Source: Stenotrophomonas maltophilia (GTDB lineage Bacteria; Pseudomonadota; Gammaproteobacteria; Xanthomonadales; Xanthomonadaceae). From it: a stretch of 64,000 bases of DNA. This document shows positions 23,369 through 47,740 of this stretch, in pieces; position 1 is the first letter of the stretch, and each line of letters begins with the position of its first letter. The stretch is taken from the NCBI RefSeq assembly GCF_002138415.1, contig NZ_CP015612.1:2706001-2770000 (forward strand). Direction: 5' to 3'. The position numbers and the translations under genes are program-made. The notes under the pieces were generated by a model. That model made no database searches and was not told the origin of the DNA. It saw only the letters and a program-made list of their open reading frames with translations.

Positions 23369-23428
23369 GTAGTGTCGAGCCATGCTCGACTGCTTCTACA
23401 CAACAGCAGCCGAGCATGGCTCGGCTCT
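23369..23428. repeat. SMAG/REP pair, left part, cut by the IS110 element
   Basis: GTAGTGTCGAGCCATGCTCG hairpin at 23369-23394 and an inverse hairpin AGCCGAGCATGGCTCGGCTC at 23408-23428. The inverse copy should end GGCTCTAC but is broken after GGCTCT. The missing CTAC is found at 24651, immediately after the IS. Confidence 0.9.
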
Positions 23429-23441
23429 TGTGTCTTGGATC

Positions 23442-23627
23442 GTGCCCTGATCAGGCACAATCCCCCGGTGACCCGGGAGGCTCCGATGACGCTGCCTCGG
23501 CTCTTAAGCCTTCGAGCTTGCAAAGTAGATTCAGCGCGTCGGCGGCCTGACACCGCCTTGGAACTTGAACGGTATCTTAGGCCCACCATGGGGTGAGAGC
23601 CTGTACTCACAAGGGCAAGTCTGGCGG
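23442..23627 (+). ncRNA. predicted IS110 bridge RNA
   Basis: Three structured parts follow in bridge-RNA order. A 5' hairpin: GTGCC/GGCAC, 23442-23458. Target-binding loop: outer stem GACGCTG (23488-23494) with CAGCG..TC (23532-23540), inner UUCG-type hairpin AAGC/GCTT (23506-23519). Its left side holds CTCGGCTCT (23496-23504), identical to the left target at 23420-23428; its right side holds GTAG (23525-23528), complementary to CTAC at 24651-24654. Donor-binding loop: stems CCGCC/GGCGG and ACTTG/CAAGT. Here ACGGTATCT (23569-23577) is identical to the right end (24644-24652), and CACAAG (23608-23613) is complementary to the left end CTTGTG (23427-23432). Transcript ends are not known. Confidence 0.85.
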
Positions 23628-23666
23628 CTTCCGATCACGATCGTAAGTTCAAGCTGGAGCCAAATC

Positions 23667-24632
23667 ATGCAATTTATCGGCATCGACGCTGCCAAGGCGA
23701 CCTTTGATATCGCCGTGCCACTATCTGGCAGCAAGTATCGAACCAAGGCCAAACTCCCCAATACGCCAAAGGGCTTTGATGAGCTTCTTGCGTGGCGCGC
23801 CAAGCATGCACCGAACGCGGCGGTAGGCATGGAGGCTACAGGTATCTATCACGAAGCCTTGGCTCGAGCCCTGGTGGAGGCGGGGGTGGTGGTTCATGTG
23901 GCCAATCCCGCCCGAGTAAAGGCGTTTGGGCAGGCGGAGGGAATCCGGACCAAGACGGATCGCAGCGACGCCAAGCTGATTGCCCGGTTCTTTGAGGCAC
24001 AACGCCCGGAAAAGCTGCATCCCTACGTTCCGCCGACCCCCTCGGAGGTGAAGCTGCGCGCCTTGGTACGGCGTCGAGACGACCTCCAGGAAATGCTGCA
24101 GATGGAGCACAACCGCCTGGACGTTGCCGATATCTCGGTCCAGCAAGGGATCAAGGATGTGATCCGGACGCTGGAAGAGCAGATCAAGCAGGTCCAAAAG
24201 GCGATTGAGGACCATATCGATAACGATCCGGACCTGCGCCGGCGTCATCAACTGCTTACCAGCATTCCCGGTATAGGCAACATCAGCAGTGCCCAGCTGC
24301 TGGCCATGCTGGGGGATCTAAGCAAATACAGCGACGTGCGCCAGGTGGTTGCCCACGCGGGCCTGAATCCGGCCCAGCGTCAATCAGGAAATTACGAAGG
24401 TAAATCCCGGATATCACGCGTCGGCGATGCCGTTTTCCGCAAGAAACTGTACATGCCGGCGCTGACCGGGAAGACCCACAACCCTACGCTGAAGTCCTTT
24501 GCAGACCGGCTCAGCGCGAAAGGAAAGCCCTTCAAGGTCGTCATGTGTGCGGTGATGCGTAAACTCATCCATCTGGTTTGGGGCGTACTGAGAAGTGGCC
24601 GACCCTTTGAGCCGGACGGTGCCCTTGCCTAG
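23667..24632 (+). CDS. IS110-family transposase (recombinase)
   Basis: 321 residues with an N-terminal RuvC-like DEDD catalytic domain (Asp7 in GIDAAK, Glu56 in VGMEATG, Asp98 and Asp101 in TDRSDAK), a central coiled coil (about 130-185) and the C-terminal Tnp domain (LTSIPGIGNISSAQLLAML, then NPAQRQSG carrying the conserved serine at about 240). The start MQFIGIDAAK at 23667 aligns with family members; a longer in-frame extension would overlap the bridge RNA. A palindrome GCCCTTGCCTAGGCAAGGGC (24621-24640) spans the stop codon and may end its transcript. Confidence 0.95.
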   Translation: MQFIGIDAAKATFDIAVPLSGSKYRTKAKLPNTPKGFDELLAWRAKHAPNAAVGMEATGIYHEALARALVEAGVVVHVANPARVKAFGQAEGIRTKTDRSDAKLIARFFEAQRPEKLHPYVPPTPSEVKLRALVRRRDDLQEMLQMEHNRLDVADISVQQGIKDVIRTLEEQIKQVQKAIEDHIDNDPDLRRRHQLLTSIPGIGNISSAQLLAMLGDLSKYSDVRQVVAHAGLNPAQRQSGNYEGKSRISRVGDAVFRKKLYMPALTGKTHNPTLKSFADRLSAKGKPFKVVMCAVMRKLIHLVWGVLRSGRPFEPDGALA

Positions 24633-24650
24633 GCAAGGGCAACACGGTAT

Positions 24651-24690
24651 CTACAAAAGCGAAGCAAAGTCGAGCATGGCGCGACGCTAC
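24651..24690. repeat. SMAG right half plus a further SMAG hairpin
   Basis: CTAC (24651-24654) completes the SMAG hairpin interrupted by the IS. A second inverse hairpin GTCGAGCATGGCGCGACGCT follows at 24669-24690 and ends in CTAC. That CTAC supplies the TAG stop codon of the minus-strand MocR gene. Confidence 0.8.
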
Positions 24691-44680: not shown

Positions 44681-44756
44681 GGGGCCATAGCTCAGCTGGG
44701 AGAGCGCCTGCATGGCATGCAGGAGGTCAGCGGTTCGATCCCGCTTGGCTCCACCA
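44681..44756 (+). tRNA. tRNA-Ala(GGC), copy 1
   Basis: 76 nt with encoded CCA end. Acceptor GGGGCCA pairs with TGGCTCC; D-arm AGCTCAGCTGGGAGAGC; anticodon loop ATGGCAT gives GGC (alanine, GCC codon); T-arm GGTTCGATCC. Identical to the copies at 45071 and 45317. Confidence 0.97.
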
Positions 44757-44810
44757 ATCTTTCGGCATTAGGCCGTCGAAAGGTCGCTAAAGAACATTGA
44801 TGAGAATTGC

Positions 44811-44886
44811 GTCCCCATCGTCTAGAGGCCTAGGACATCACCCTTTCACGGTGGCGACCGGGGTTCGAATCCCCGTGGGGACGCCA
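44811..44886 (+). tRNA. tRNA-Glu(TTC), copy 1
   Basis: 76 nt with encoded CCA. Acceptor GTCCCCA pairs with TGGGGAC; anticodon loop CTTTCAC gives TTC (glutamate); T-arm GGGTTCGAATCCCC. Identical to the copies at 45196 and 45440. Confidence 0.97.
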
Positions 44887-44904
44887 CTCATCACGAACAA
44901 CGAG

Positions 44905-44931
44905 GACCCGGCCGATAACCGGGTCTTTTTT
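44905..44931 (+). terminator. intrinsic terminator after the first tRNA pair
   Basis: Stem GACCCGG (44905-44911) with CCGGGTC (44919-44925), followed by TTTTTT. It separates the first Ala/Glu pair from the next two. Confidence 0.85.
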
Positions 44932-45024
44932 GTTCACCGCCTACCGGCATTCAGCTTGTGGCGTTGCGGTTCCCCTGCCCCCGTGGCTGCGGTTGAACCG
45001 AAACGAAAAAAGTTCAAAAAAGAC

Positions 45025-45053
45025 TTCCACAAACGTGAACACGCAGGTATGAT
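45025..45053 (+). promoter_or_regulatory. sigma-70 promoter for tRNA pairs 2 and 3
   Basis: -35 TTCCAC (45025-45030) and -10 TATGAT (45048-45053) with a 17-bp spacer, in an A-rich upstream context (AACGAAAAAAGTTCAAAAAA) that could serve as an UP element. Confidence 0.6.
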
Positions 45054-45070
45054 AGGCGGCTCGGTAACAC

Positions 45071-45146
45071 GGGGCCATAGCTCAGCTGGGAGAGCGCCTG
45101 CATGGCATGCAGGAGGTCAGCGGTTCGATCCCGCTTGGCTCCACCA
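45071..45146 (+). tRNA. tRNA-Ala(GGC), copy 2
   Basis: Identical in sequence to the copy at 44681 (anticodon GGC, encoded CCA). First gene of the second transcription unit. Confidence 0.97.
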
Positions 45147-45195
45147 CTTTCGACATTAGGCCGTCGAAGGTTCTACAACTTGAAGTTTTTCGTGC

Positions 45196-45271
45196 GTCCC
45201 CATCGTCTAGAGGCCTAGGACATCACCCTTTCACGGTGGCGACCGGGGTTCGAATCCCCGTGGGGACGCCA
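45196..45271 (+). tRNA. tRNA-Glu(TTC), copy 2
   Basis: Identical to the copy at 44811. No terminator lies between this gene and the third pair, so pairs 2 and 3 are probably one transcript. Confidence 0.97.
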
Positions 45272-45316
45272 GTTTCAAAACGGACTCTGCTCCCGGCAGA
45301 TCATCCGGAGTTTCAT

Positions 45317-45392
45317 GGGGCCATAGCTCAGCTGGGAGAGCGCCTGCATGGCATGCAGGAGGTCAGCGGTTCGATCCCGCTTGGCTCCACCA
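45317..45392 (+). tRNA. tRNA-Ala(GGC), copy 3
   Basis: Identical to the other two alanine copies. Its spacer to the following tRNA-Glu (CACTTCGACATTAGGCCGTC...) is almost the same as in pair 2, pointing to recent duplication. Confidence 0.97.
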
Positions 45393-45439
45393 CTTCGACA
45401 TTAGGCCGTCGAAGGATCTACAACTTGAAGTTTTCGTGC

Positions 45440-45515
45440 GTCCCCATCGTCTAGAGGCCTAGGACATCACCCTTTCACGGTGGCGACCGGGGTTCGAATC
45501 CCCGTGGGGACGCCA
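45440..45515 (+). tRNA. tRNA-Glu(TTC), copy 3
   Basis: Identical to the other glutamate copies; followed 11 bp later by a strong terminator. Confidence 0.97.
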
Positions 45516-47654: not shown

Positions 47655-47740
47655 GCCGGTGTGGCGGAATGGTATACGCAGCTGACTCAAAATCAGCCGG
47701 GGGTGACCCCATGAAGGTTCGAGTCCTTTCACCGGCACCA
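47655..47740 (+). tRNA. tRNA-Leu(CAA)
   Basis: 86 nt with a long variable arm, as in leucine tRNAs. Acceptor GCCGGTG pairs with CACCGGC; anticodon stem GCTGA/TCAGC with loop CTCAAAA gives CAA (codon TTG); T-arm GGTTCGAGTCC; CCA is encoded. Confidence 0.96.

Follow-up and report, generated by a model that had tools for sequence, protein, structure and literature searches.

Within the window, by which we mean the whole 64-kb stretch of DNA analysed here, lies an insertion sequence of the IS110 group at 23429–24652, which is 1,224 bp long when one CT core is counted (this and all features below are on the + strand). It comprises a non-coding left end (LE) of 238 nt (23429–23666) that holds a predicted bridge RNA, a gene encoding a recombinase of 321 amino acids (23667–24632), and a short right end (RE) of 20 nt including the core (24633–24652), which terminates in ACGGTATCT. 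To its left are the palindrome arms and head side of a host REP (AGCCGAGCATGGCTCGGCTCT, 23408–23428), recognized by reading the sequence and by repeat search. This REP provides the left part of the target, with the left target (LT) at 23420–23426 followed by the CT core at 23427–23428; the right core CT and the right target AC occupy 24651–24654.

The boundaries of the element are based on empty sites and on the copies in its own genome. At this locus, five of 11 related genomes (L221, L222, L223, L225 and L226) carry the empty site CTCGGCTCTACAAA (CTCGGCT-CT-ACAAA), in which the REP is unbroken, and the remaining six have a different REP arrangement or an altered site. (L228 has the exact empty-site string on the opposite strand and was excluded from the five.) Because the REP is uninterrupted in these five genomes, we define the element as 23429–24652, counting one core. 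In the close group, the sequence at the left end is GGCTCGGCTCT in all six copies of the window's own genome and all seven of genome G039, and also in the left ends found in G074 (4/4) and G013 (6/6). The AC continues all 24 right ends found in these four genomes and, in one case, in G038; right-end BLAST rows that match the palindrome alone were excluded from these counts. It could be supposed that the copies in this genome have lost the mobility that their ancestors owed to a functional RNA and recombinase, and a copy number as small as six would fit such decay. However, the six copies are 99–100% alike, are located at six REPs and have stop-free reading frames, and G039 has its seven copies at different left flanks while the window's locus is empty there. 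The near-identical copies and the differences in G039 indicate recent movement, and we regard a decayed passenger as improbable.

The recombinase contains a DEDD RuvC-like domain (DEDD_Tnp_IS110, PF01548) and a C-terminal Transposase_20 domain (PF02371), which score 98.6 and 84.4 bits, both over the curated Pfam cut-offs, and which place it in the IS110 family. By sequence comparison with the PDB, its closest solved relatives are the recombinases of IS621 (8wt6, E 1.9e-69) and ISCro4 (E 1.1e-68). As between the IS110 and IS1111 groups, the long LE, the short RE and the match of an RNA model inside the LE (see below) assign the element to the IS110 group. Also as in this group, no inverted pair connecting the element's two ends was detected with an exact seed of 9 and a length of at least 10, settings for which repeats of 7–8 bp are below detection; the inverted pair I1 is located in the flanking REPs, not in the element ends. 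Judged by sequence, the defining features of an IS110-group bridge RNA are present wherever they were checked.

The LE carries four segments that correspond to target and donor DNA. The left target guide (LTG), CTCGGCTCT at 23496–23504, repeats LT plus core in sense orientation and is identical to the site at 23420–23428, and the right target guide (RTG), GTAG at 23525–23528, is the complement of CTAC at 24651–24654. The left donor guide (LDG), ACGGTATCT at 23569–23577, repeats the right end with its core (24644–24652), also in sense orientation, and the right donor guide (RDG), CACAAG at 23608–23613, is the complement of CTTGTG at 23427–23432, that is, of core plus left end. As in IS621, LTG and LDG have the top-strand sequence of target and donor, to which RTG and RDG are complementary, and each guide includes the core. 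Each nine-base sequence is present at exactly two places on the + strand of the window, once as guide and once as site. The original prediction had given all four matches with their order and strand, and coordinates for the two nine-base guides, and direct reading and a script reproduced them to the base. It had also called chance matches very unlikely. Among 200,000 letter shuffles of 23442–23627 (186 bases), one contained both 9-mers and none had all four guides in order; taken individually, the 4- and 6-base matches carry little weight.

The predicted bridge RNA extends over 23439–23627. The stretch folds with −78.8 kcal/mol, compared with −67.8 ± 4.2 for 200 shuffles (z −2.62), three of which were equally stable. 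Two hairpins, one at 23442–23458 that comes from the single-sequence fold and one at 23464–23477 that corresponds to helix 1 of the alignment described below, precede a target-binding stem-loop (loop 1, 23478–23548) and a donor-binding stem-loop (loop 2, 23553–23627). A 5′ stem-loop followed by two stem-loops with internal loops is the layout of the IS621 RNA. The left end had been described as one 5′ hairpin and two internal loops; the two loops stand, but at the 5′ side there are two short hairpins rather than one. Similarly, LTG is placed in loop 1 as described, but the single-sequence fold pairs part of LTG inside this loop, which is thus not fully open.

We aligned 20 left ends, namely that of the window and 19 others (L122 and L158 included), from hosts with 46–100% protein identity or a broken gene. 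Their consensus structure has 24 pairs, of which 15 are changed on both sides, and 97.2% of the cells are paired, compared with only 24–44% once partners are slid by 1–3 columns as a control. The covariation score was reached by none of 500 shuffles, a control that ignores relatedness; one further covariation measure, the number of further pair types, gave no excess over shuffles (487 of 500 as high). Compensatory changes are found in helices 1 (four of six pairs changed on both sides), 2, 3, 5 and 6, of which 3, 5 and 6 belong to loop 2, and none are found in helix 4, which is situated in the donor guides. The closing stem of loop 1 is absent from the consensus structure and derives its support from single-sequence folds: the minimum free energy structure (MFE) contains a stem-closed loop 1 with an inner hairpin in 18 of the 20 left ends, including the window's, and loop 2 in 17, whereas in letter shuffles the frequency was 1–15 per 100 for each row. 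We also built a covariance model from 15 relatives, all Stenotrophomonas sequences excluded; it matched 23439–23622 with 60.7 bits (E 1.3e-16), and the next best match in the window has 9 bits. A covariance search and conserved stems among left ends had been proposed as checks on the RNA, and both turned out in its favour, the former with our own model and the latter with compensatory changes. In a scan with Rfam at the gathering threshold, tRNAs were the sole entries in the window. (Six tRNA genes form a tight array at 44681–45512, in which two score classes alternate three times, and one more tRNA is at 47655–47737.)

Relatives of the element were taken from two sources. From a scan of genome contigs, 80 of 178 confirmed loci were kept; the second source was searches at the level of the genus (91 genomes), the family (395) and the class (369), in each of which at most 30 loci were listed. 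Among the loci listed, 205 have a recombinase match and 120 have a left end that fits a start pattern, which fixes the core and the first left-end bases but leaves the guide free; removal of 22 left-flank duplicates gave 98 loci. The guide and site tests used the 87 of these with at least 34% protein identity, which have 33 distinct guides, and left out the 11 below 34%. A further 48 loci with at least 34% identity lack the start pattern (contig ends, broken copies and differing left-end starts, e.g. L190, L191, L193 and L196) and are in no guide count, although in L193 and L196 the guide seems to match the site by eye. L019 was excluded from site counts because its contig begins inside the site. 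Some distant rows with the guide shifted by one base (L025, L028, L202 and L205) remained in the analysis, and sites were permuted both without and with a one-base register freedom.

With one locus for each of the 33 distinct guides, 5.27 of the 7 non-core bases are identical to the guide's own site, a value that 0 of 2000 permutations of the sites reached (permuted, 2.85 ± 0.21); with one-base register freedom, the numbers are 6.21 and 3.67 ± 0.17. At the 86 loci with a full site, all seven bases are pairable (G.U counted) in 64 when the alignment register is used, and in 69 when registers −1, 0 and +1 are allowed. The expected covariation of loop-1 guides with insertion sites is therefore borne out, with exceptions: despite register freedom, nine of the 86 loci have fewer than six of seven pairable bases. 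Some of these nine are distant rows in which the alignment may have misplaced the guide, while L016, L036, L038 and L201 look like genuine off-target or decayed sites. These four are also the clearest among the few copies that present what the original prediction had named as contrary evidence, the same guide at another site. (The copy at L038, in Halomonas beimenensis, whose guide fits its site badly, lies within the coding sequence of a second copy of this element.)

The other guides were compared in the same manner. By our own reading of the tally, RTG and right target form Watson–Crick pairs in 69 of 74 loci (64 GTAG-CTAC, two TCAG-CTGA, and one each of CTAG-CTAG, ATAG-CTAT and AGAG-CTCT), three have one G.U pair, and two are mismatched (ATAG-CTAC and GTAG-CTAA). 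The donor guides of relatives mostly track the right end, in the classes ACGGTAT, ATGGTAT, ACAGTAT and ACGGTTA, with a few mismatches.

The 11-bp site CTCGGCT-CT-AC consists of the GTAG head and first palindrome arm of the host REP. The 11-mer CTCGGCTCTAC has 120 copies in the genome, compared with one for the reversed control, and is the reverse complement of the head and first arm of the REP listed as Smal1 for S. maltophilia R551-3 (PMC2817692). As the target is REP head plus palindrome arm, the element enters intergenic repeats. The guides of window-type Stenotrophomonas copies read the GCCGAGC-type REP, those of Pseudomonas relatives mostly GTAGGGTGG-type plus other repeats, and those of Xanthomonadaceae-type relatives GTAGGAGCGGC-type repeats; in these sequences, guides differ in step with the REP of the host.

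One alternative is that the recombinase itself reads the REP palindrome, in which case the left-end matches would be fortuitous or left over from earlier insertions. Such protein-only targeting would agree with the finding that all window-type Stenotrophomonas copies that were read sit in one REP type, and with an excess of second hairpin arms: the other arm of the site is present as an inverted copy in 51 of 85 left flanks, compared with 10.2 from shuffles, as a palindrome-reading protein would give. However, the other 34 of the 85 left flanks have no second arm by the same measure, and the nine bases in the left end change along with the site across 33 guides. These nine bases moreover sit in a covarying RNA fold, the second loop of which matches the element's own ends. 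We consider targeting by protein alone to be very improbable.

One Stenotrophomonas relative departs from exact agreement between guide and site. The guide in genome G014, CTCCGCACT, has two changes from that of the window. Its six distinct left ends, for which the left ends alone were read, are at CCCGCACCT (three) or CCCGCATCT (three), all in a CCCGCA(C/T)CT REP whose two site forms are CCCGCACCTAC and CCCGCATCTAC. The guide has no contiguous match to these CCCGCA(C/T)CT sites, and the exact 11-mer that it spells, CTCCGCACTAC, is absent from the G014 genome, in which CCCGCAYCTAC occurs 193 times (reversed control, 20). Pairing of guide and site would require either one looped-out target base or a one-base shift with two G.U pairs, and with the shift a mismatch remains at the T form.

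Other IS110-like elements of the genus were also seen near such repeats. Six loci with approximately 30% identity (L095, L100, L104, L108, L109 and L114), and another IS110-like element of the window's own genome (G000:C1:3234052-3234888, with CTCGGCTCTAC at 3234946), seem to lie within similar REPs, in the loop or in an arm, with flanks such as GCCGAGCATGG-CT. Different IS110 lineages may therefore insert at different positions of the same REP.

In IS621, the RNA is driven by a promoter that spans the core of the joined ends (PMC11208160). Joining RE to LE in this element yields TTGCCT, 17 bases and TATCTT, with the core within the latter. The proposed −35 is TTGCCT (24625–24630), and the proposed −10 combines TATCT of the RE (24648–24652) with the first base of the LE (23429), so that this promoter would be assembled only when the ends are joined in a circle. 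Among 49 sequence-distinct junctions, many of them related, TTG is present at exactly this spacing in 35 and missing in 14, including L019, L021, L023 and L078. We thus propose a reconstituted junction promoter of the IS621 type, as predicted from sequence. A perfect 11-bp palindrome (TGCCCTTGCCT/AGGCAAGGGCA, 24620–24641) spans the recombinase stop codon and the proposed −35. Its interpretation as a regulatory hairpin was rejected, as several Xanthomonadaceae-type relatives keep TTGCCT without the palindrome.

The guide matches, the covariation of guides with sites and of stems with each other, and the match to the covariance model all argue for the IS621-like bridge-RNA interpretation with which we began. 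We therefore conclude, with a probability of roughly 95%, that this is an IS110-group insertion sequence that targets itself by means of a bridge RNA in the manner of IS621; the element, boundaries, guide matches, fold and guide–site agreement are read from sequence, and the steps of its activity are drawn by analogy. By this analogy, the element would excise as a circle, and joining of its right and left ends would create the promoter TTGCCT-17-TATCTT, whose −10 contains the core and from which the RNA would be transcribed starting at about 23436–23439. The recombinase would bind this RNA, the circle junction would be recognized through pairing with loop 2 and the 11-bp site CTCGGCT-CT-AC through pairing with loop 1, and strands would be exchanged at the CT core.

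Since LTG duplicates LT and core in the sense orientation, each insertion holds two left targets, approximately 76–83 bases apart. AC, the right target of most sites, follows none of the 33 guides taken as representatives; as these sequences are related and some are misaligned, the pattern is no more than suggestive. In L174 (copy at G096:C1:3587413-3588366, junction at G096:C1:3588609-3588627), and also in L214, a REP is followed by a left end duplicated exactly to the guide core and then by a complete element. Either self-insertion into guide DNA with subsequent recombination, or slippage between the 8–9-base repeats LT and LTG, would give L174, and because slippage yields the identical sequence, we do not assign L174 to self-insertion. 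Three more junctions with the same pattern (G317, G365 and G380) are ordinary REP sites. In L151/L009 (G013:C52), a 15-base tandem duplication in loop 1 repeats most of LTG (TCGGCTCTTAAGCCT twice). A 29-base similarity between left junction and loop 1, longer than the nine-base guide, was dropped from consideration, as its extra part looked chance-level by eye in Pseudomonas-type relatives.

A tentative reading, which we would not favour at present, is that the target-binding loop of this clade is split in its role. RTG would be nearly fixed as GTAG, the head common to many REPs, while LTG would track the palindrome arm of the host's REP family. The G014 element would then be in mid-change, with a guide that fits its present REP by a one-base bulge or a one-base shift with G.U pairs, and the second left target of an insertion would be protected only by the missing AC after the guide core, a protection of which L174 might be a breach.

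Much of this biology has precedents. Published work already covers the mechanism as well as REP targeting, guide–target covariation and natural reprogramming (Durrant et al. 2024, PMC11208160; Siddiquee 2024; Hiraizumi 2024; Tobes and Pareja 2006, PMC1525189). Among the papers searched, none combined bridge RNA with Stenotrophomonas, and one, a review, combined bridge RNA, self-targeting and IS110. Insertion of the IS110-family elements ISPpu9, ISPpu10 and ISPa11 of Pseudomonas in REPs was reported long before the guide RNA (Tobes and Pareja 2006); ISPa11 differs in that it is of the IS1111 group and its RNA maps downstream of the transposase gene (PMC11187229). ISStma4, ISStma6 and ISStma7 of S. 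maltophilia are likewise of the IS110 family and from the same genus (PMC13296070), and the element described here may be one of them or new.

The closest known system is IS621 of E. coli (Durrant et al. 2024, PMC11208160), in which a change of the guide alone shifts insertion to the matching new site. Like our element, IS621 has its guide RNA in the left end, the order LTG-RTG-LDG-RDG, a CT core, a GTAG RTG, a REP target and a circle-junction promoter (here predicted), and the recombinases are alike over their whole length. Protein identity to IS621-annotated plasmid copies is about 43%, and L217, which is annotated as IS621 family, shares the layout of the window's element. The two differ in guide, REP family and donor (ACGGTAT here, ACAGTAT in IS621). 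To the known systems we add a further element, described in its exact anatomy, and a set of natural guide–site pairs whose misfits are informative. For an RNA-guided recombinase, a working model with element ends, four guides, target and circle promoter is thus readable from a single raw window, and its relatives form a natural series of guide–site pairs, the imperfect members of which bear on mismatch tolerance in nature.
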